Source: a virus | IMG/VR virus record: IMGVR_UViG_3300048591_000348 | Coordinates: 1 to 64,000 of that record | Direction: 5' to 3' (one strand) | DNA: 64,000 nt | Shown: piece after piece, positions 28,794 to 61,415 of the stretch | Numbering within the stretch: position 1 is the stretch's first letter | Layout of the letters: each line of letters begins with the position of its first letter | Position numbers and translations under genes: made by a program | Notes under the pieces: generated by a model | What the model saw: the letters and a program-made list of their open reading frames with translations, nothing else | What the model was told of the DNA's origin: nothing | The model's database searches: none

Positions 28794-29867
28794 ATGCACA
28801 CATCTAGCACACGATGGCGAATCTCGCCACTGGGGTGGATCGCGCTATCCCTCGGGATCGCGGCCGAATCCGCCTCAAACGCGCTCCGAGCCTACGGGCT
28901 TGGTGCGTTCCTCGATCGCTTCGCGGTACACATCCAGGGGCACACGGTCTCGCTTGCGGGGTCCGTCCTAGTGCTGGCCGCCATCGCGATCTCACTCGCC
29001 CAGGCCAGAGCGGCCTGGGTCGCGCTCTCCCCAGGGCGCCCCATCAGTCAGCGTATCGTAGCGGGCTTCGCAGCCGCACTACTCGTCTCGATCTCGATCA
29101 CGGCCCTTGCTTCTCATGTTCTCGATGCGCAACGAGCCAAGGGCGGTAGAGAGACAGCGGCCAGTCAATCGTACAGTAGAGCGAAGGCTGCGCACGACAA
29201 AGTCGTCGCCGAAATGCAATCGCTTGGCGAGACGCGTCCAGTATCCGTGATCCAGGCCGAGATTGCCTCGGCCCAGATCGACATGGTTGTGTGGCGTCGA
29301 TCGGCCCAATGCAGTGACATCAGTCGCGAGGACACAAAAAAACTCTGCGGGCCAATCCTCACGCTTTACAAGGAGCGTGGCGCCGCCGCACGCAAGCTCG
29401 AGCTTGAACCCGAAGTCGCGCATCTGCGGGAACAACTCTCAAGCATGACGCCGCCCGTCGAAGCCAAGACGGCTTCGGAGGAAGCGATGTCCATGTGGTG
29501 GGCGTGGATCATGGGACTCGGCGTGGTGTATCTCGCCACATTCGGATCCGTGATTTACGCCAACGAAGTAACAGTCACAGAGCGGGAGCTTCCAAACCTT
29601 CCGCCACCGCCCTCAGCAAAGATCGTGGAAGACGACAGCCCGCCATCCGGCGGCGAATGCCGTCCGAAGACGAGAGAGGAAGCACTCGCCGACCTGCGGC
29701 AGCTTCTGAAGGCGGGACACAGCCCGCCGTCTCAGGAGTGGCTTAGGGCGCGCTGGCAGGTGGGCTCAAAAGGCACGGTCTCAAAATGGCTTCGCCTTTG
29801 GGAGGACACTGCTCAGATGCCGGGGAGCCGGATGGTCGAAGGGCGCTGCAAGACCGTAGTCGCGTAA
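28794..29867 (+). CDS. Membrane protein with C-terminal HTH-like domain
   Basis: 357 residues from MHTSSTRWRISPLGW. Three to four membrane segments: about 10-30, 48-66 (SLAGSVLVLAAIAISLA), 85-105 (IVAGFAAALLVSISITALA) and 237-258 (WWAWIMGLGVVYLATFGSVI). Between the last two is a helical, coiled-coil-like region. The C-terminal about 60 residues (ALADLRQLLKAGHSPPSQEWLRARW, GTVSKWLRLWED) look like a helix-turn-helix. A membrane-tethered regulator is one reading. It ends at a strong terminator. Confidence 0.6.
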   Translation: MHTSSTRWRISPLGWIALSLGIAAESASNALRAYGLGAFLDRFAVHIQGHTVSLAGSVLVLAAIAISLAQARAAWVALSPGRPISQRIVAGFAAALLVSISITALASHVLDAQRAKGGRETAASQSYSRAKAAHDKVVAEMQSLGETRPVSVIQAEIASAQIDMVVWRRSAQCSDISREDTKKLCGPILTLYKERGAAARKLELEPEVAHLREQLSSMTPPVEAKTASEEAMSMWWAWIMGLGVVYLATFGSVIYANEVTVTERELPNLPPPPSAKIVEDDSPPSGGECRPKTREEALADLRQLLKAGHSPPSQEWLRARWQVGSKGTVSKWLRLWEDTAQMPGSRMVEGRCKTVVA

Positions 29868-35884: not shown

Positions 35885-37030
35885 TCACACCCCCCTTAGC
35901 TTTGCCAGCTTGTTTCTGTTCCGTACTTCGACGATACGCTCTTCAGCCCGAAGCCGCGGTCGATTGCCGGCAGCAACCAAACTGCAAATCGTCTCTCTGT
36001 AGATCTGTTGTGCCCGCTGCCATGACCGATTGATCTCGTTGCCGATAGCCAGCCACGTGCGAGGCGGCGACAGCATCCTGGCGCGCAGCACAACCATTTC
36101 CCGGTCTCGGGGCGCCACTTCCGAGAACCATCCCATGACCACATCAAAATCCGCCCAGTCATGCGGCGTCGGGACGAGTGGCGGCACCCAGTCATCCCCC
36201 CGTGACTGCTCGCCGTAGACATCAACCCATGTCAGCTTGAGGTCGGCGAGAACCGCCGCATTGCTCCGCTGCCTTCGGATGTCCGTCGGTAGGCTGCGCT
36301 CAAGAATGAGGTGCCGCATGATGCGCGCCTCGCCGTGCTCGCGGGATACGGCACCCATCGGCTCGTAAACAACCCGCGTCACGTCGCGCCACCATTGGAC
36401 GATGGCACCCCGTGCCCCTCCCGTTCCATGCGTGGGCACCCCGTGCCCAACCCCGTGTTTATGCGTGGGCACCCCGTGCCCAACAGTGGGCACCCCGTGC
36501 CCAACGGTGGGCACCCCGTGCCCAACGGTGGGCACCCCGTGCCCAACGGTGGGCACCCCGTGCCCAACGGTGGGCACCCCGTGCCCAACGGTGGGCACCC
36601 CGTGCCCAACGGTGGGCACCCCGTGCCCCGTGTGGGCACTTGGTGTCATGTCATCCCACGCGTCGTCCCATGCCCCGTCATCACGCGAATAGTCGGCACG
36701 GGCTGCCTCACGCCATTCTTCCATCTCGGCGGCCGCGTTGGCCGCATCGAACGACATGCCGCCGATGCTTCCAATTCTCGGCCGGACTTCGACGCGGATG
36801 GGCTCGGGCTCGATGCCATTCTGCCATCGCCACTGCGTCGCATCGCAAGGCTGCCACGCCTCGACCCTGGCGCGCAGCGGCTTCAATTCGCGGCCGCGGA
36901 TCTCATGCCAATGCCGGCGCCCCTTCTTGTCGACGTCGCCGACGGCATCGACGACGTATCCCGGCCAGCGCACGCGAACGCGCACACGGCCGGCAGGAAG
37001 ATCCTCGATCCTGTACCAATGATGGTTCAC
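35885..37030 (-). CDS. Protein with GHGVPTV tandem repeats
   Basis: 381 residues from a GTG at 37030 (TGAGG upstream). The N-terminal domain (NHHWYRIEDLPAGRVRVRVRWP) is followed by an acidic linker. Nine GHGVP units (eight spaced exactly 7 residues) fall at about 135-200. The C-terminal region is helical and ends with a probable helix-turn-helix (RTWLAIGNEINRSWQRAQQIYRETI). The C-terminal part resembles DNA-binding regulators. The repeats are encoded by a 21-bp hairpin minisatellite. Confidence 0.55.
   Translation of the reverse strand: MNHHWYRIEDLPAGRVRVRVRWPGYVVDAVGDVDKKGRRHWHEIRGRELKPLRARVEAWQPCDATQWRWQNGIEPEPIRVEVRPRIGSIGGMSFDAANAAAEMEEWREAARADYSRDDGAWDDAWDDMTPSAHTGHGVPTVGHGVPTVGHGVPTVGHGVPTVGHGVPTVGHGVPTVGHGVPTVGHGVPTHKHGVGHGVPTHGTGGARGAIVQWWRDVTRVVYEPMGAVSREHGEARIMRHLILERSLPTDIRRQRSNAAVLADLKLTWVDVYGEQSRGDDWVPPLVPTPHDWADFDVVMGWFSEVAPRDREMVVLRARMLSPPRTWLAIGNEINRSWQRAQQIYRETICSLVAAGNRPRLRAEERIVEVRNRNKLAKLRGV
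36432..36628 (-). repeat. 21-bp tandem hairpin array
   Basis: GTGGGCACCCCGTGCCC starts at 36432 and then at 36465, 36486, 36507, 36528, 36549, 36570, 36591 and 36612: eight in strict 21-bp register plus one 33 bp away. Each unit holds the perfect palindrome GGGCAC-CCC-GTGCCC. The array is in frame and codes for GHGVPTV. A lone near copy (14 of 15 bases) lies at 41295-41308. Confidence 0.95.
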
Positions 37031-37772: not shown

Positions 37773-38060
37773 CTAGGCGAGCGCTCCCTCTCCCTCGGCC
37801 CAGACTTTGCCGAGCGGCGTGTCGTCGCCCATGCGGAGCGCGTGGAGATAGGTGGCGAGAACCGCCTCCTCTTCATCGCGCTCGGTCTTTGACTTGCGAC
37901 GCAATCCGAGAACCTTTCGGATGATCTTGGGATCGAACCCTTCCGCCTTCGCCTCAAGCAGCTTGTCCCGAAAATCGGCGCTGAGGGCTTGTCGCTCCTC
38001 TTCGATCCGCTCCAGCTGCTCGATGAATTGGCGAAGTTGTGCTTGGGTTGAGGCTTGCAT
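37773..38060 (-). CDS. gapR: GapR-family nucleoid protein (DUF2312)
   Basis: 95 residues. QLRQFIEQLERIEEERQALSADF is the long first helix of GapR; LLEAKAEGFDPKIIRKVLGLRRK is the diagnostic centre; ERDEEEAVLATYLHAL is the last helix. Caulobacter GapR clamps overtwisted DNA ahead of forks and stimulates topoisomerases, so a phage copy may help phage replication or bias host replication. Encoded in the same operon as the origin and GcrA homologue. Family assignment is secure; gene symbol by homology. Confidence 0.9.
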   Translation of the reverse strand: MQASTQAQLRQFIEQLERIEEERQALSADFRDKLLEAKAEGFDPKIIRKVLGLRRKSKTERDEEEAVLATYLHALRMGDDTPLGKVWAEGEGALA

Positions 38061-38851: not shown

Positions 38852-38991
38852 CCCTTTTTCCCTCGCCTTACGACGCGCACGCGTTTTGAATTGCGTTGCC
38901 TGATCTTCTCGGAAACGGACTGCTTCCGCTTGCCGCGAACAATCTTTCCGTCTTTGCCTATGCAAAACGATTTGCCGAGGCGAGCGCTCAT
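38848..38991 (-). CDS. Very small basic protein
   Basis: 47 residues beginning MSARLGKSFCIGKDGKIVRG, with about 35% Lys/Arg (KRKQSVSEKIRQRNSKRVRV). Its ATG overlaps the MT-A70 gene stop (ATGA) and its stop overlaps the next GTG. This end-to-end coupling supports translation. Probably nucleic-acid binding. Confidence 0.5.
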   Translation of the reverse strand: MSARLGKSFCIGKDGKIVRGKRKQSVSEKIRQRNSKRVRVVRRGKKG

Positions 38992-39608
38992 GCTGAAGCC
39001 TCATCGAACATACCTGCCTGATCCCCGAACGACTCCCATGTGGGCCGTGTTTCGCGCGAGAACACATCGGCAGCCCGTCCGAACGGAATGAGTTGGCGTG
39101 CCATCTCATAGGCTTCATCGGGCTTCCGAGAGTGCTCTCTTGCCCTCGCCAGGATTGCTGATCGCACGGATTTCGACTGCGTTCGGATCCGGCCAATCTT
39201 TCCGATCAGAAACAGCTCGTGGGCCCCTCGCAGCACATAGCCAGTACCGAAGCCGACTTTCCCATTCTTCGTCGTCTTCACCCATGCGCCACTCGTGACG
39301 AATTTGAAGCCCCAATCCTCCAGTATTCTGATCTGCTGCTGGATCCCCGGTGCGGTGCACCACATCCACAAAAGCATGCCGTCCTTGTGGGCGAGATCTT
39401 TCACCGGCAATGCCGCGATCTCGTCCATCGTCATGGTTCGATACTTGGCTTGCGGTGACTTCCCACATCCTTTCTCAGAGAATGTTCGAAAGCGCCATGC
39501 GGGATCGATCATCGCGAGCGAATATGCACCAGGCTCAAGGTCACCGAACGGCCAGTTCGGAAAGCGACAGTCTTCACTGAAGAGATCTTCCTGGCGCAGA
39601 TCGATCAC
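38988..39608 (-). CDS. MT-A70-type DNA adenine methyltransferase
   Basis: 206 residues. AMIDPAWRFRTFSEKGCG is the catalytic motif (D-P-A-W in place of DPPW). LLWMWCTAPGIQQQIRILEDWGFKFVT and a RGAHELFLIG strand follow, as in phage MT-A70 enzymes. The usual second Pro is Ala here. It probably makes N6-methyladenine in phage DNA. Coupled by four bases to the 355-residue methyltransferase. Confidence 0.85.
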   Translation of the reverse strand: MIDLRQEDLFSEDCRFPNWPFGDLEPGAYSLAMIDPAWRFRTFSEKGCGKSPQAKYRTMTMDEIAALPVKDLAHKDGMLLWMWCTAPGIQQQIRILEDWGFKFVTSGAWVKTTKNGKVGFGTGYVLRGAHELFLIGKIGRIRTQSKSVRSAILARAREHSRKPDEAYEMARQLIPFGRAADVFSRETRPTWESFGDQAGMFDEASA

Positions 39609-40672
39609 TCTGCATGCTCCATCACGTCCAGCAGACCACCGCGATCCCTGCCAAGCCGTCGCTCGGCCATAGCTGCGTATTCAGGGTTCAGCTCGATAAG
39701 GATCGCATTCCTCTGCAGCCGATCAGCTACAAGGGCCGTCGTTCCTGACCCGCCAAAGGGATCGAGAACCATCCCTCCCTTCGGACAACCGGCCTTGATA
39801 CAGATTTCTGGTAGCTCCGGTGGAAACGTTGCGAAGTGGGCTTCAGCAAATGGGGCTGTGGCAATCGTCCAAACTGAGCGCCGGTTGCGCCCATTTGCCA
39901 TTTGCTCTGCCCTTCCCATGGAATCCCATCGCTCGTTGAACCCTTGATGTTTCCTCTCGTGGCCTCGCCGGCGCTCGGGCAATTTTATGGTCTCATTCTT
40001 ACCGACGCGCTTGTTGCCTATTTGGGTGCGTGGCCCAGGTGTGCCACCGACATAGGATCCGCCACGAAAACCCATGGCGTCTTCGTTGCCTGAGCGCATC
40101 TCACGGACAGCATCGGCGTCGTAGAAGTAGCGCTCCGACTTTGTCATCAGGAACACGTACTCGTGTGATTTCGTGGGTCGATCGCGAATGCTTTCCGGCA
40201 TTGGATTCGGCTTTGACCAGATGATGTCAGACCGCAACCACCAGCCGTCATCCTGAAGCGCGAACGCGAGACGCCATGGCAGGCCCATCAGGTCTTTCGG
40301 TTTCAAACCCGGTGTCCGCTTAAGACTTCCCGTGTTAATTCCCCTTGGCGCCGCGTAAACTTGTCTACCACTGAGCTTCGATGCTGGACCGGGCGTTTCT
40401 CCGCGCGATTGCGCGCCCCATGATCCTGCGTAGGCATCGCCGTAATTGAGCCAGAGTGTGCCATCCGCGCGCAGAACACGGCGGATCTCGCCAAACACCG
40501 CAACAAGCCGATCGATATGCTCAAGCAGAGTTGGTTCACTGCCAATCTGGCCTTCAACGCCATAATCGCGCAGACCCCAGTACGGCGGGCTCGTCACGAC
40601 GCAATGCACCGACTCGCTGGGCAACTGGCGCAGACCGTCCATAACGTCGGCTTGAATAATTCTTACGGTCAT
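39605..40672 (-). CDS. DNA methyltransferase (N4-cytosine or N6-adenine, SPPY type)
   Basis: 355 residues. VVTSPPYWGLRDYGV is motif IV, at the N-terminus; GGMVLDPFGGSGTTALVADRLQRNAILIELNP near the end is the SAM motif I. This order is that of the beta class, the same class as CcrM, though there is no evidence for GANTC specificity. Central part LKPKDLMGLPWRLAFALQDDGWW with SKPNPMPES is typical of phage enzymes. Together with the neighbouring MT-A70 enzyme it forms a modification pair. Confidence 0.9.
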   Translation of the reverse strand: MTVRIIQADVMDGLRQLPSESVHCVVTSPPYWGLRDYGVEGQIGSEPTLLEHIDRLVAVFGEIRRVLRADGTLWLNYGDAYAGSWGAQSRGETPGPASKLSGRQVYAAPRGINTGSLKRTPGLKPKDLMGLPWRLAFALQDDGWWLRSDIIWSKPNPMPESIRDRPTKSHEYVFLMTKSERYFYDADAVREMRSGNEDAMGFRGGSYVGGTPGPRTQIGNKRVGKNETIKLPERRRGHERKHQGFNERWDSMGRAEQMANGRNRRSVWTIATAPFAEAHFATFPPELPEICIKAGCPKGGMVLDPFGGSGTTALVADRLQRNAILIELNPEYAAMAERRLGRDRGGLLDVMEHAE

Positions 40673-41829: not shown

Positions 41830-41908
41830 ACCACCACCGTTGCAATTCGCCCCTCTGAATTGAGATCTCGGCGTGAGATCTCAAGTCGGAACGGCCTATT
41901 GCCAATGT

Positions 41909-41940
41909 GGCCGCCTCGGGAGCGTGATCCCGAGGCGGCC
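41909..41940 (-). terminator. Strong hairpin, possible terminator
   Basis: A perfect 12-bp stem (GGCCGCCTCGGG/CCCGAGGCGGCC, 8-base loop) after the porin and its small partner gene. No U-tract follows on the minus strand, so termination is uncertain. Confidence 0.5.
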
Positions 41941-41979
41941 GAGTGCCGAGAAAAACTGGAGAGAGTTAAACTCGTCGAC

Positions 41980-42078
41980 TTACCATCCGCCTGGAAGCAG
42001 CATCGCCACCCCGACAAGGCCAACGATGGAGGCAACCAGAATGACGATGTCGGCTTTGGAGATTTCGTTGCTGTCCAT
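41980..42078 (-). CDS. Tiny membrane protein
   Basis: 32 residues: MDSNEISKADIVILVASIVG... with one hydrophobic segment of about 20 residues. It begins two bases after the porin stop and ends before a strong hairpin, so the two form one unit. Possible porin accessory or toxin-like peptide; the function is not known. Confidence 0.5.
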   Translation of the reverse strand: MDSNEISKADIVILVASIVGLVGVAMLLPGGW

Positions 42079-42079
42079 C

Positions 42080-43246
42080 TCAGAACTTAATCCTTACGCC
42101 AGCCATTCCAACGGATGCGTCCAGGCCGCCGCCGATGTCGTATGACCGATACGAAACGAACGCATCGAGAGCCGCAGCGTCGATGCTCTGCACGATGCCG
42201 AGCCCCCAGAAGTCAGAGTCGACGTTCGCCGTCTTCAACTGATGGTCCGCGTACTCGGCATAGACCGCCGTGTTTCCCATGCCGAAGAAGTTGCGAGACA
42301 GGCCGCCACGGAGATGCCACATCTGAATATCGCCCCAGAGAGGGTGATCATCCTGGTGGCCGCCGGCGACATTGAGGAACACGCCAGTTGCGACATGCAG
42401 CATCGAGATGGACCCGGTCAGAGTCTTCATGTCGCTCATGCCGAACCCGTCGAGATTCTCGACGCGGTAGCCAAGCCCAGCAGCGAGCCGCACGCCACCG
42501 AACTCGCCAGCGTAGCGCAACGCAACGTCATAGAGATCGTCCCCTGACGCTGTCTGACCGCCGCCCCAAGACGCCGACCCCTTGAAGCCGGCAAGCTCTG
42601 GCGTGTCGTACCGAAGGACTTCCGCTCGTCCGCCGTCGAAGCCAACGGGATTGACGATTCCGAGCCCAATTCCGGGGAGGCCGGAATAGGTCCACATCGG
42701 CTCGGCCGAGAGCGGCAGGGACGCGATGTTGGTGTTAGAGAGATCAATCTCAGCGATCCCGTCCGTCGCCGTCGATGTCCGGCCAATGCTGACGCGGCCG
42801 ACGGAAGAATCCAACCACGCCACCGAGTGGCGTACGGTCATGTCGTTAACCATGCTGCCGGCGCCGAGCAGGCCGCCCGCAGTTTCGTCGATGCCCAGCT
42901 CGATCATGAACCCGGCCTTCATTGTCGGACTGATCGTCGCCTCCCCTGAGAAGCGAAGCTTGGTGCCGCTGTTGGGGTTGTCGATGATGCGCCCCTTGCC
43001 GTCACCGGGCAAACCGCTTAGATCGTTCCACAAAATTGCTTTGCTGACCTCGCCGGAGATCGTCAGCCTGACCTTGCGATTGCCCTTCCTGGCGACGGTC
43101 GCCTCGAGCTCTGCCACGCGCTCTTCGAGGTCCGCGCAGCAATCCCCCCCGAGGTCGGCGGCCTTCGCCGCGGGCATGTAGGCGTATCCGCCAATCGCGG
43201 CGGCGGCGGCGATACCACCGCCGATCAGCCAATTCTTCATAGCCAT
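42080..43246 (-). CDS. Outer-membrane porin (phage-borne)
   Basis: 388 residues. Signal peptide MAMKNWLIGGGIAAAAAIGG with cleavage after AKA (about residue 29). CADLEERVAELEATV follows, a coiled coil like those of alphaproteobacterial porins. Then come many beta strands (KVRLTISGEVSKAIL, KLRFSGEATISP) ending in Phe (AGVRIKF), the outer-membrane assembly signal. It has its own promoter with operator. A lysogenic-conversion role, such as changing surface receptors, is likely by analogy with the phage porin Lc of lambdoid phages. Confidence 0.85.
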   Translation of the reverse strand: MAMKNWLIGGGIAAAAAIGGYAYMPAAKAADLGGDCCADLEERVAELEATVARKGNRKVRLTISGEVSKAILWNDLSGLPGDGKGRIIDNPNSGTKLRFSGEATISPTMKAGFMIELGIDETAGGLLGAGSMVNDMTVRHSVAWLDSSVGRVSIGRTSTATDGIAEIDLSNTNIASLPLSAEPMWTYSGLPGIGLGIVNPVGFDGGRAEVLRYDTPELAGFKGSASWGGGQTASGDDLYDVALRYAGEFGGVRLAAGLGYRVENLDGFGMSDMKTLTGSISMLHVATGVFLNVAGGHQDDHPLWGDIQMWHLRGGLSRNFFGMGNTAVYAEYADHQLKTANVDSDFWGLGIVQSIDAAALDAFVSYRSYDIGGGLDASVGMAGVRIKF

Positions 43247-43305
43247 GTTGGTTTGGTCCCTGATGGGCAGCATTACGCTTGCACGCGAACGCACCACTGG
43301 CCGCT

Positions 43306-43369
43306 GTGGCCATTAATCGAAACGATTCGTAGCGCTAGATATGTATTGTTTCGATTTTGGGAACAAGAG
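43306..43369 (-). promoter_or_regulatory. Porin promoter with operator
   Basis: Minus strand: TTGTTC, 17 bases, CATATC, with operator GTTCCCAAAATCGAAAC (plus 43348-43364) filling the spacer. A second, imperfect site (GTTTCGATTAATGG on the minus strand, about 43306-43322) lies downstream. The 210-base gap before the porin holds no gene. Confidence 0.55.
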
Positions 43370-43977: not shown

Positions 43978-44469
43978 TCAAGGATTGATGATGATTTCGC
44001 CGGACGCGTTGATCGAGCCGTGGATTGATTTGGGCGCCGACTTCGATGCGCGAGCTGTAGATGGAGACGGAGATGGAGACGGAGATGGAGGCGGAGGCGG
44101 AGCGGGCACCCTGTCTCCCCCCACGCCAGCGAGGATTGCTGTGGCGACCTCTTCCATACGAGCCATGTACGTCCCGCGAACGCCGCCCTGCTGAATCAAT
44201 TTCTCTGCGGCTCTGAGACCCGACGTCACCGTCGAATGATCTCGTCCGCCCAGCGCGCGCCCGATCCGAACATGCCCCAGCCCCTCGCGCTTCGCGATCC
44301 TCATCACTACGAACCTGGCGGAAACGACGTCTTGCGACTTGCCTTCCCCGAGCAGGATTGATTTTTCGATATGGCTGGCCTTCGCCACGGCGCCGATGAT
44401 CTGCTGCATGAGCAACGCGCGGATCTGTCCCGGCTTTGTGTGAGGCTGTGCAATGCGATCGTTTTCCAT
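43978..44469 (-). CDS. DnaA domain IV-type DNA-binding protein
   Basis: 163 residues. SQDVVSARFVVMRIAKREGLG, then RIGRALGGRDHSTVTSGLRAAEKL reproduce the DnaA C-terminal DNA-box-binding domain, including the GGRDHSTV signature. No AAA+ domain is present. The tail has a SPSPSPSPS linker and a short end. It could bind DnaA boxes (a near-consensus one lies at 47547-47555) to act at the phage origin or to titrate host boxes. Confidence 0.85.
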   Translation of the reverse strand: MENDRIAQPHTKPGQIRALLMQQIIGAVAKASHIEKSILLGEGKSQDVVSARFVVMRIAKREGLGHVRIGRALGGRDHSTVTSGLRAAEKLIQQGGVRGTYMARMEEVATAILAGVGGDRVPAPPPPPSPSPSPSPSTARASKSAPKSIHGSINASGEIIINP

Positions 44470-44472
44470 TTC

Positions 44473-45333
44473 CTAAGTCCCCGTTGCTTCGTGAATGGCA
44501 TGAATGGCCACGGCGGATTTCCACGCATCGAACACGTCGCTATCCCCGTTTGCGACCCACACATCGACCTCTCGCTTTCGCGTGGATAGCGGAGCCCGGT
44601 TTTGCGTTGTTTGCAGATGGTATCCGTCACGAGACTCCCAGGGGCGGCCATTGACGATGTAGCTCTGTCGCCATTTCTCGTCCCGAACGACGAGGGACGC
44701 GCCGTATTTCATGCCAGGCAGAATGAACCCAATGCGGACATCACTGATCAGGAGTGCCCCACAACTTCTGTCCCGCGCGACATAGACGTGCTGCCCCCAA
44801 AGCGCGGTCTCATTGCCTATGATCTCAGCGCCGGGGAACCTGCGCATCACCTCAGCACGAACAATGGCGATAGCCTTCGCCTTCATCCGCACCATGCGTT
44901 TGCGCTCAGCCGTCTCGCGATCGTGGCATGCCTTGTTGCAGAAGATTGAACCGGGATTCGGCTCATACGGATCGCAGATCGGCAGCGTCAGATCAGGCCC
45001 ATATTCCCGATCGAGCCCGTAATCTAGATAAGTATAGTGACCGGTATAAGGATCGCTCGTTCCAATAGCGCCATGGTCGATCTTGACGCCACAGCCATGA
45101 CACTCGACCCACCAGCCTTCATCGATGAGTTCAAGTCCGGGAACCGGGCCTGGTGCATGCTTGTCCCATCGCGCCCTTCGCATCGCTCTGATGCCGGCGA
45201 TGAACCGGTCTCCGTCACCGTGCTCATTGGCCCATAGGCGCTTCGCTTCGATCGACGATTTTGCGAAGATGATCTCGGAGTCTTCCGGATCGCCATTGCC
45301 GTCGACAAAGTAGCATCTCAACGAGGCTATCAT
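44473..45333 (-). CDS. Hypothetical zinc-binding protein
   Basis: 286 residues. Cys/His pairs CHGCGVKIDHG and FCNKACHDRETAERKR suggest a metal site in the middle third. The rest is beta-rich (YVARDRSCGALLISDVRIGF). Overlaps GcrA's stop by four bases. Function unknown; encoded between the GcrA- and DnaA-like genes. Confidence 0.55.
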   Translation of the reverse strand: MIASLRCYFVDGNGDPEDSEIIFAKSSIEAKRLWANEHGDGDRFIAGIRAMRRARWDKHAPGPVPGLELIDEGWWVECHGCGVKIDHGAIGTSDPYTGHYTYLDYGLDREYGPDLTLPICDPYEPNPGSIFCNKACHDRETAERKRMVRMKAKAIAIVRAEVMRRFPGAEIIGNETALWGQHVYVARDRSCGALLISDVRIGFILPGMKYGASLVVRDEKWRQSYIVNGRPWESRDGYHLQTTQNRAPLSTRKREVDVWVANGDSDVFDAWKSAVAIHAIHEATGT

Positions 45334-45950
45334 TCCGTTCGCTCCAATTCCCTCTCAGAAGGCCGCTGAGCGCCTTCCTCATCTTTGGCTACATCGGGTC
45401 GTAATTTTTCATTCTGCCCGTCCTGCGCAAACCTCGGGCGATCTACGGGCATTCCAGGGCGGTCCATCGGGGCGCGGGAGATTTTTGCGCAATCCTCGCA
45501 GTACGAGAGGCCAATAACCCGCGCCTCGCCGCAAAACCGAAACGTCTCCGTCCCCGGCATCCCGACCGGCCATCGGCAGTGGCGGTCTTCCAGCTGATCG
45601 AACGTGACCAGCTTCGCCGGATCGAAGTCCCTCCCGGAGCGATCGACATACGGCTCGACCGGGATCGGAGCGGACCGCGGCGCCGCCCGGTACGACGGCG
45701 AAGACGGCGAAGACGGCGACGGCGTGGCTGCCTGGCTGTAGCGCCTCGTCGGGATCGACGTCTTCGCCCGCCTTGGTACGCGCCCCTCGGAATTGATCCT
45801 CATCCGGTGCAGCCTGGAGATCACCGCGTTTCGCGTCAGCGCGATCCCGAATTTCAAGTTCGCGATGTTCGCGACCTGGCTGGCCGACTTGCCGGACTTC
45901 CATTCCGAGATCAGAAGTTCGACCAGGCCGGGGGTTTCCCAAACGGACAT
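45330..45950 (-). CDS. gcrA: GcrA-family cell cycle regulator
   Basis: 206 residues. The N-terminal domain WKSGKSASQVANI, then ALTRNAVISRLHRMRI, is the GcrA helix-turn-helix. A Pro/Ser-rich linker (about 75-115) leads to the C-terminal RNA polymerase-binding part HCRWPVGMPGTETFRFCGE with SYCEDCAK. In Caulobacter GcrA binds sigma70 RNA polymerase and activates promoters with methylated GANTC. A phage copy may redirect host transcription or read phage methylation marks. Slightly longer than host GcrA (about 170). Confidence 0.92.
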   Translation of the reverse strand: MSVWETPGLVELLISEWKSGKSASQVANIANLKFGIALTRNAVISRLHRMRINSEGRVPRRAKTSIPTRRYSQAATPSPSSPSSPSYRAAPRSAPIPVEPYVDRSGRDFDPAKLVTFDQLEDRHCRWPVGMPGTETFRFCGEARVIGLSYCEDCAKISRAPMDRPGMPVDRPRFAQDGQNEKLRPDVAKDEEGAQRPSERELERTE

Positions 45951-46726: not shown

Positions 46727-47965
46727 TCACGCCCCCCCGCTCAGCTTCGCGGCAAGGATCCGCTTGGTGCGTTCGATTTCTTCCTCCGGCTTGCCGTTGA
46801 TGGCCGCCGCGCCCGCGCTGAGACGCGACGCGACCGACTGCCGATCCCGCGCTTCTCTGGCCGCCTGTGCCCGACGTTGGTTGACGTCGCCCATGATCGA
46901 CCGGGCGAGAAAGTTGGCGATCTTGGATGGCAGGACTTTTTCCGGGCGCTGCCCGTTCTCGATCTCAAGACCCCATTGCATTGCGTGCGCAACGCAGAAA
47001 TCGCGAACCTCGGTCGCCGTGAGCCCAGAGTTGATCGTCTGCATTCGGATGCCCGAGACGTAGATCGCAAACGCCGCATGTCGGATCGTCTCGCCGTTGG
47101 CATAGACGCCGTGCCCGATGTGGGCCTCCCCAGCGAGAGGGGGCGGGTAATTGGCAGGCGCTGGCCCGCCTTCGCTCGCGTCCGCGCTAGTATCAGTTCT
47201 CACAGTAGTTTCTTTACTAGTTACTGTGCCAACTGGGGATCTGACATCAGAAGTGACGTCACTTGGGGATGTGACGTCAGATGGAGATCTGACATCAGAA
47301 CCCAAATTTGTGTCTTCACTATCGTTCGGCCTACTAGATATAGTTTTGATGTCAGGCTGGCATCTGACGTCAGATCCCCATCTGACGTCAGATGGGTGCA
47401 TGACGTCAGATGGGTGGGTGATGTCAGATAGGTGCATGACATCAGGATGGTGGATGATGTCAGATGGAGAGGTGACATTAAGCACGCGATTTCTGCGCGC
47501 CTGCGCAATGGGATGAGGTCTCAGCGGAGTAGTGCGCTGGGACATTATCCACTGCGTGACGATATCCTGTAGCTCGGCTTGTCTTTGCTTTCGCAGGGCG
47601 TAATGCGCGAGCGCCCTCCCTCCCCCTTCCGGGGCGCGCCTCGCTACGACGAGGTACCCCAACGCAACAAGTTCGGAGAGCGTGTTCCTGATGCCTTGGT
47701 CCGTGTACCCCTGGTCCGGGTAGCCGTCTATGTTGTAGCGCCGGAGGGCGGCGGCGATGGTTTTGTGCCCAGGATAAGCGGTGCCGGTTGACGAGTTTAT
47801 GTGACCAATAACTTCGGCGAGAACACGCAAATGGCGCCGATCCAATCGCGGGTCACGCACCGCCTCCATGATTACCTCCTTCATTGTCAGGAGAAGGTTC
47901 TCTTTGCTCTCGTTCACAAAGTCGTCGAAGGTCGGCCCGCCATTGTGCCCAATCTGGTCGGTCAT
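46727..47965 (-). CDS. Lambda O-like replication initiator with internal origin
   Basis: 412 residues from ATG with GGAGGCGAGCT upstream. The N-terminal winged-helix domain (about 40-125): RHLRVLAEVIGHINSSTG, YPGHKTIAAALRRY, IRNTLSELVALGYLVVARR. Residues about 165-245 consist of SDV/SDI repeats (HPSDVMHPSDVRWGSDV), the protein reading of DNA iterons. The C-terminal part is helical. In lambda, O binds iterons inside its own gene; the layout here is the same. First replication gene of the early operon. Confidence 0.8.
   Translation of the reverse strand: MTDQIGHNGGPTFDDFVNESKENLLLTMKEVIMEAVRDPRLDRRHLRVLAEVIGHINSSTGTAYPGHKTIAAALRRYNIDGYPDQGYTDQGIRNTLSELVALGYLVVARRAPEGGGRALAHYALRKQRQAELQDIVTQWIMSQRTTPLRPHPIAQARRNRVLNVTSPSDIIHHPDVMHLSDITHPSDVMHPSDVRWGSDVRCQPDIKTISSRPNDSEDTNLGSDVRSPSDVTSPSDVTSDVRSPVGTVTSKETTVRTDTSADASEGGPAPANYPPPLAGEAHIGHGVYANGETIRHAAFAIYVSGIRMQTINSGLTATEVRDFCVAHAMQWGLEIENGQRPEKVLPSKIANFLARSIMGDVNQRRAQAAREARDRQSVASRLSAGAAAINGKPEEEIERTKRILAAKLSGGA
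47201..47555. other. Candidate replication origin: 18-bp iterons and DnaA box
   Basis: The core TGA(C/T)(G/A)TCA starts at 47347, 47365, 47383, 47401, 47419, 47437, 47455 and (one mismatch) 47473: eight units at exactly 18 bp. A second group starts at 47242, 47254, 47272 and 47290. Between the groups (47299-47346) and left of them (47190-47235) the DNA is AT-richer. TTATCCACT (47547-47555) differs from the DnaA box by one base. All inside the initiator gene, as in lambda. Confidence 0.82.
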
Positions 47966-60560: not shown

Positions 60561-60830
60561 CTACCTCTTCAGCCCGAATCTAGCTGCGTCTCTGATCGGC
60601 GCCATCATATTCCGCACCAGATCCCCAAGAGCCATCCATTTGTCTGGTGCCTCCTGAGTGATGCCGTACTCGTAAATCGCTTGCGTCGCATCACTCTCGA
60701 TCTTCTTGAGTGCGGCTTGCGCCTGCACAAGCCGGCGAGCCGTCTCAACTGGTGTTGCGGCCAACTGCGACACGAGTATTTCTTGGGCGTGATATTGCTG
60801 CGACAGATCGCGGTTGGCCGGCGTCTTCAT
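60561..60830 (-). CDS. Hypothetical helical protein
   Basis: 89 residues (MKTPANRDLSQQYHAQEILV). Helical with AAALKK-type segments. Overlaps the NYN gene stop by four bases, so it is its partner. Function unknown. Confidence 0.5.
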   Translation of the reverse strand: MKTPANRDLSQQYHAQEILVSQLAATPVETARRLVQAQAALKKIESDATQAIYEYGITQEAPDKWMALGDLVRNMMAPIRDAARFGLKR

Positions 60831-61381
60831 TCGGCTGCCTCCTTGGCGGGGATGGGCCTCGATATTCCATCGGCGATGTCAGCGACATCGATGAAGACGT
60901 CGGCCTGTCGGCGCATCTCGTCGGAAACCGATGCCGGCTGTGTCTTGATCGTAGAGACAACGGTTACGCGGACACCCTTGGCCTGGATGGCATTTACGAG
61001 GGGCCGAAACTCGCCGCTGCCGGAGAATAGAACGATATGCTCGACCGTATCGGAGATCCGCATCGCGCAGACGGCCAGGTCGACGTCGATGCTCATCCTC
61101 GTGCGGCGAGGGCCGCTCGCGTCCGTGTATTCCCTCACAACCTTGGTGACGGTTGTAAAGCCATTGTAGGCCAGCCAATCGACCAGTGGCTGGAGGGATG
61201 AATACCCCGACTCATCCTCCGTGATCGCCGTGAAGTAATAAGCTCGCACGACGCGGGCCTTGTCTTGGAAGAAGGCGAGCAGCTTCTTGTAGTCCGGGTT
61301 GAGGCCCAGCGCCCGCGTTGTAGAGTGGAAGTTGGCGCCGTCGATTAGGATGGCTACCCGCTCAGTCGGATAGAACGACAT
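60827..61381 (-). CDS. NYN-domain (LabA/DUF88-like) putative nuclease
   Basis: 184 residues from MSFYPTERVAILIDGANFHS. Acidic residues: ILIDGANF (Asp), MSIDVDLAVCAMRI (Asp pair), HIVLFSGSGEFRPLVNAIQAKG where SD/D is replaced by SG, and DVFIDVADI. The fold is the PIN-like NYN RNase. One of the usual acidic residues (the GDxDF position) reads GSGEF. A 17-bp operator lies 35 bases upstream, so it may be repressed in lysogens. Confidence 0.82.
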   Translation of the reverse strand: MSFYPTERVAILIDGANFHSTTRALGLNPDYKKLLAFFQDKARVVRAYYFTAITEDESGYSSLQPLVDWLAYNGFTTVTKVVREYTDASGPRRTRMSIDVDLAVCAMRISDTVEHIVLFSGSGEFRPLVNAIQAKGVRVTVVSTIKTQPASVSDEMRRQADVFIDVADIADGISRPIPAKEAAE

Positions 61382-61415
61382 CGGTGAGTCCCCCAAAATA
61401 TCGTCACATAGATAT

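Follow-up and report, generated by a model that had tools for sequence, protein, structure and literature searches.

We describe here a complete outer-membrane porin encoded by a temperate phage, probably one of alphaproteobacteria, and show by sequence comparison that it groups with the porins of other phages and of prophages, apart from host porins. Judged from the trees, this phage branch is previously undescribed, and two basal chromosomal genes aside, all its members among the matches listed come from phages or prophages; the original observation of one porin thus widens to a phage lineage of porins. We propose that the protein remodels the cell surface during lytic growth and limits re-adsorption or superinfection, a reading to which we assign a probability of roughly 0.42.

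The window, by which we mean the whole stretch of DNA analysed, comprises bases 1-64000 of a 79,919-bp IMG/VR record, and the ends of that record form an exact 127-bp direct terminal repeat, which indicates a complete, circularly assembled genome. The record carries terminase, portal, major capsid, tail and lysis genes together with an integrase and repressor-like genes, and is therefore that of a temperate phage, with no host DNA flanking; the portal is about 31% identical to those of the closest deposited phages, which are Vibrio phages. The porin gene sits in the leftward early region, approximately 6 kb from the repressor region, and this position, together with the terminal repeats and the virion, integrase and repressor genes, establishes that it is truly phage-borne. 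The features of the locus are as follows.

42080..43246, minus strand: porin gene, 388 aa (Porin_4 profile match, AlphaFold2 model, Foldseek match to Omp32)
43160..43246, minus strand: signal peptide, residues 1-29, predicted cut AKA/AD (read from the sequence; low AlphaFold2 confidence there)
43079..43159, minus strand: N-terminal anchor, residues 30-56, ADLGGDCCADLEERVAELEATVARKGN, with an Ala-Asp start; the most conserved part (identity comparison)
42083..43078, minus strand: 16-stranded barrel, residues 57-388, with short extracellular loops and a C-terminal Phe (model and loop comparison)
43346..43365, strand not assigned: phage-wide operator, one copy, some 100 nt upstream of the porin ATG (pattern count)
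41980..42078, minus strand: 32-aa single-span membrane peptide, starting one base past the porin stop
41909..41940, minus strand: strong hairpin with a 13-bp stem and without a T run (z -5.95 for 41890-41975)

The porin reading frame is intact and open across 42080-43297 on the minus strand, and the start is likely the ATG at 43246, with AGGGA about 10 nt upstream. In a profile search the product matches Pfam Porin_4 (E 1.7e-17, 64.7 bits against a cut-off of 27), which is the sole Pfam family reported for it at E-values up to 0.01. The AlphaFold2 model (mean pLDDT 82.7) has 16 long strands, and the top solved structures in a Foldseek search with it are Omp32 and other 16-stranded porins (E ~1e-15). 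The general-porin features found are a 16-stranded barrel, an inward loop L3, a signal peptide and a C-terminal Phe, the last two being read directly from the sequence, as was a short heptad segment. The original prediction of a complete porin with signal peptide, coiled coil, beta strands and C-terminal Phe is borne out, including the secretion signal that it proposed to look for. Cleavage, predicted by eye, would leave a mature N-terminus beginning ADLGG, and members of the phage branch begin with Ala-Asp or Ser-Asp. The G+C content of the gene (62.6%, and 77.6% at third positions) is somewhat higher than that of the early genes (61.0%, and 69.6% with an s.d. of 5.7) and not far out of range. 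No defence-system match was found for the porin.

Neither this porin nor two other members of the branch match anything in 50,697 GenBank phage records, exact peptide words of the porin recover no close relatives in viral contigs, and plasmid matches reach about 33% identity at most. Combining the N-terminal motif with an alignment search yields relatives at about 25 viral loci with 34-45% identity, the viral labels of IMG/VR being predictions. Bacterial genomes hold hundreds of relatives, and among the best 80 nearly all of those with a named family come from Hyphomicrobiaceae or other Hyphomicrobiales, a distribution that makes a Hyphomicrobiaceae-like host likely; the closest host porin, among the matches listed and with loci chosen by similarity to the query, is 43% identical. 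One family-level sample has the porin superfamily in 96 of its 103 genomes, with up to 17 matches per genome, and by these comparisons the phage porin family is a standard porin family of the likely hosts and multicopy there. Such abundance is what a recently captured host porin with no role in the phage would have in its favour, a scarcely credible reading given that identity to any host porin among the matches listed is at most 43%, that the tree contradicts it with a phage-specific branch, and that the reading frame is intact within a conserved early-region synteny. Recent host capture was ruled out on the identity and the tree, and near identity to a host porin with host flanks, which had been named as a sign of it, is not the case in this terminally repeated record without host DNA.

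In a tree of 129 sequences, 21 of the 22 different viral porins form a group (SH-aLRT 99) that includes just three genome sequences. L043, a genome sequence in this viral group, comes from a contig with many genes in common with the window phage, by its sequence a prophage or phage contig. L024_9680 and L087_9857 are basal genome sequences; both have an ordinary host-type porin as neighbour, and genes of the window phage were found near neither. The best matches in the 30 family-sample genomes with the highest scores added one more genome sequence to the branch, L139, which has an integrase and further phage genes beside it. A careful 56-sequence tree, from which one recombined porin (L013) and fragments were omitted, places all 20 phage and prophage rows (18 virus records and two prophages) on one side of a branch with bootstrap/SH-aLRT support of 92/92, and unites them with the two basal chromosomal genes at 100/98; several branches of these trees are long and their inner order is weakly supported.

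The neighbourhood of the gene is also shared among related phages. G013 has homologues of the window genes 45950, 45330 (GcrA-like), the porin, 40669 (HNH), 35885 and 35359 in the same order as in the window, and G011, G016 and G001 have subsets of the porin's early-region neighbours. Their virion modules differ, with portal phrog_1216 in the window phage and G013, portal phrog_156 in G016, terminase phrog_979 in G011 and a contractile sheath in G004. Early-region synteny despite differing virions means that the porin gene has been either long inherited or moved between phages. We also note that OMP_b-brl outer-membrane barrels, one or two each, occur in the porin-bearing phages G002 and G004 (L131:7192-7953, L135:12971-13762 and L136:15697-16479), that one of those in G004 lies directly upstream of the porin, and that the G078 prophage has an OMP_b-brl homologue. 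A 357-aa protein without a Pfam match (28794-29867) is 45-49% conserved in two porin-bearing phage contigs (G001 and G011), and its homologue in G001 adjoins the porin.

The phage porins differ from those of the hosts on one side of the barrel. Measured from strand midpoint to strand midpoint as mapped on the AlphaFold2 model, the extracellular side has a median of 198 residues in phage porins and 234 in host porins, whereas the periplasmic side is equal (103 and 103). The loop difference has p = 0.001 after thinning to <50% identity, and with the shared ancestry of the sequences the shortening counts as one trend and not as many independent events. It is carried by L2, L3, L5, L7 and L8, with a median for the constriction loop L3 of 49 in phage porins and 62 in host porins, and the two basal host genes are intermediate. 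A plausible alternative model is that of a nutrient or permeability gene, in which a more open general pore would increase small-solute uptake by a slow-growing infected cell during lytic growth; the general porin fold and the shorter L3 agree with it, and an early position would suit a metabolic aid. We regard it as a serious rival, though less probable than the surface role, because the hosts are already well supplied with porins of this superfamily, loops that do not form the eyelet (L2, L5, L7 and L8) are shortened too, and the exchange of whole barrels, described below, fits a surface role at least as well.

Conservation is unevenly distributed along the protein. Mean identity among phage porins is 79% in the anchor, 41% in the strands and 29% in the extracellular loops, and host porins show the same pattern, with 87% in the anchor among themselves. 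In L116 (also present in a second assembly as L117), the first 276 nt of the porin, encoding leader and anchor, are 87% identical to those of the related phage L021, and the flanking DNA on both sides is alike too, at about 75-82%. The barrel is of host type, being placed with L087_11609 in the tree, and the last part of the old barrel persists behind it as a 140-codon remnant. The phage barrel of L116 is, on this sequence evidence, replaced by a host-type barrel with the old leader and anchor kept. The L013/L116 porin comes from viral contigs and is placed among host porins in the tree, and its interpretation as host contamination was rejected since the flanks, leader and remnant show barrel replacement. 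A second exchange is likely in L106, which shares its barrel with L105 (84%) and its leader and anchor with L107 (93% over 243 nt). As a separate observation, the porin leader and anchor recur at L105:7459-7818 as a 121-nt copy, fused there to a different membrane reading frame and 97.5% identical to the porin 2.4 kb downstream.

An anchor that is by far the most conserved part and is kept through barrel exchange raises the question of whether the porin serves chiefly to provide further links from outer membrane to peptidoglycan, for instance to keep the cell intact until lysis, and Ala-Asp linkage is known in related bacteria. We consider such a tether very unlikely to be the main role, as host porins have the same anchor, its conservation may only reflect normal porin assembly, and the shorter loops would be left unexplained. 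Shortened loops and exchange of the exposed barrel are best fitted by limitation of progeny binding.

Regulation of the gene is predicted from the 20-base operator TTGTTKCGWTTTYSGSAACA, which matches six times in the window, where shuffled sequence would give 0.06. Every one of the six copies lies upstream of a leftward gene, including those of the early leftward region (49178) and the porin (43346), and they are most simply read as the predicted regulon of the repressor, with two HTH proteins (49334 and 50283) as candidate binders. Both the regulon operator at the porin and the membrane peptide behind it, as originally predicted, are present; no similar peptide was found behind seven related porins examined. 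The strong hairpin proposed to follow the peptide is likewise there, but it has no T run and is therefore not a standard intrinsic terminator, and a terminator scan found none. The separate promoter that had been claimed does not appear in a sigma-70 scan, which gave no consensus match for the porin, although the operator and an intergenic space of about 208 nt point to one. A repeat search found no operator-like repeat upstream of the porins of related phages.

Several other elements of the phage may be mentioned here. Each operator copy has exactly one GANTC within 100 bases, always on the same side and 12-63 bases from the first base of the operator (16747, 23088, 37521, 43324, 49148 and 61386), a pairing that was counted after the fact and may be chance. 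Control of the porin promoter by GcrA/CcrM was set aside, as some operators lie at start codons or within a gene and, judged by eye, GANTC occurs upstream of only about half of the related porins. Relatives of host proteins that regulate the cell cycle and the chromosome are encoded in the early region, namely GapR, MT-A70 and N6/N4 methyltransferases, a DnaA C-terminal domain and GcrA (37773-38060, 38988-39608, 39605-40672, 43978-44469 and 45330-45950), of which the gene at 45330-45950 is GcrA-like; GcrA is already known in phages (phiCbK). An NYN/LabA-like nuclease (60827-61381) has its own operator copy upstream at 61414. About eight units of a 21-base tandem repeat, GTGGGCACCCCGTGCCCAACG, lie inside or beside a leftward early gene at 36429-36659, and 18-base repeats around TGACGTCAGATG at 47254-47482, in gene 46727-47965, give a repeated Ser-Asp-Val protein segment. 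A 4213-aa polyvalent protein at 67085-79726 of the record (L002:7085-19726) has inorganic pyrophosphatase, Strawberry-notch-like helicase and LPD38 domains.

Knowledge of phage-borne porins comes mostly from lambdoid phages, and the lc/NmpC porin of such phages as PA-2 belongs to Pfam Porin_1 (PF00267). The present protein was first proposed as the alphaproteobacterial equivalent of lc; that it is a real phage-borne porin stands, and kinship with lc/NmpC is not supported, the only match being to Porin_4. Both are complete trimer-type porins on temperate phages with a proposed effect on the surface and on phage adsorption, but they differ in family and in hosts, and the window porin lies in the early region with a phage operator, belongs to the phages' own porin lineage and is subject to barrel exchange. 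By analogy with lc, the prophage could express the porin, alter the surface and exclude related phages, as lambdoid phage-borne porins are known to do; the phage is temperate, and members of the branch occur in two prophages, one beside an integrase. Surface conversion of lysogens is nonetheless doubtful, and we judge it quite improbable as the role of the gene, because the operator copy at the predicted promoter, and the placement of the gene in the early region of related phages, lead one to expect silence in a lysogen and early expression in the lytic cycle.

For the favoured role in lytic growth, we envisage that the gene is expressed early after infection or induction, and that the product would be secreted by the host and inserted by the host BAM machinery. 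Host L,D-transpeptidases may then attach the Ala-Asp N-terminus of the protein to peptidoglycan, as happens with barrels of Brucella and Agrobacterium, and the infected cell would display a short-looped porin in exchange for some of the host porins. Fewer receptors would then be available to related phages, and to the progeny of the phage itself, on the infected cell and on debris, and in a lysogen the repressor would probably silence the gene. This role is suggested by the complete temperate phage genome, the phage branch, the early-region synteny and the upstream operator, and by an extracellular side that is shorter with equal periplasmic turns and barrel exchange that keeps leader and anchor. 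Precedents for Ala-Asp linkage, as far as PMC10787603 relays them, and for phages that disable porin receptors (PMC11990801) point the same way by analogy. Against it, the window phage may use a receptor other than a porin, an added porin does not alone remove those of the host, a shorter L3 is also compatible with a wider pore, and the sequence comparisons show no consensus promoter at the porin and no shared operator at the porins of related phages.

Phages that use porins as receptors often encode receptor-disabling proteins that spare progeny from binding to debris (PMC11990801). The proposed purpose here is like that of T5 Llp and T1 Cor (PMC11990801), to deny progeny and related phages the use of outer-membrane protein receptors in lytic growth, and the early region and operator of the window phage are compatible with production at that stage. 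Llp and Cor differ in being small proteins that disable an existing receptor, whereas a 388-residue barrel would act by substitution. The Porin_4 porins of Hyphomicrobiaceae share family, N-terminal anchor and 16-stranded fold with the phage branch, which differs in its shorter extracellular loops and its location in phage genomes. Barrels of Brucella and Agrobacterium are peptidoglycan-linked via an Ala-Asp N-terminus (Godessart et al. 2021, as related in PMC10787603), and on that account they have in common with the phage porin a mature N-terminus that is here predicted from sequence and encoded by a phage gene. Proteins annotated as porins from uncultured Caudovirales phages (BFVD A0A6J5L4P1 and A0A6J5LP82) also show the porin fold in phage sequence and are only 13-18% identical. 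A literature search, mostly excluding subscription papers, found no paper on phage porins of the Hyphomicrobiaceae-type group.

We tentatively extend the proposal to the lineage as a whole, with somewhat less confidence than for the porin itself: temperate phages of Hyphomicrobiaceae and related bacteria may maintain a porin lineage of their own that works as an exchangeable surface cassette, in which leader and peptidoglycan anchor stay constant while barrels are trimmed and swapped, now and then for a host-type barrel, controlling what is displayed to other phages. The lineage is diverse and phage-owned, with a fixed anchor and a changing barrel, and it offers concrete test cases in the phages that may be excluded, the timing of expression and the possible ties of a phage protein to the host cell wall. 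The phage porin branch suggests that viruses rebuild the surface of infected cells, and, if this is true, surface remodelling by a full porin would count as an enduring strategy of phages that infect a large group of environmental bacteria.
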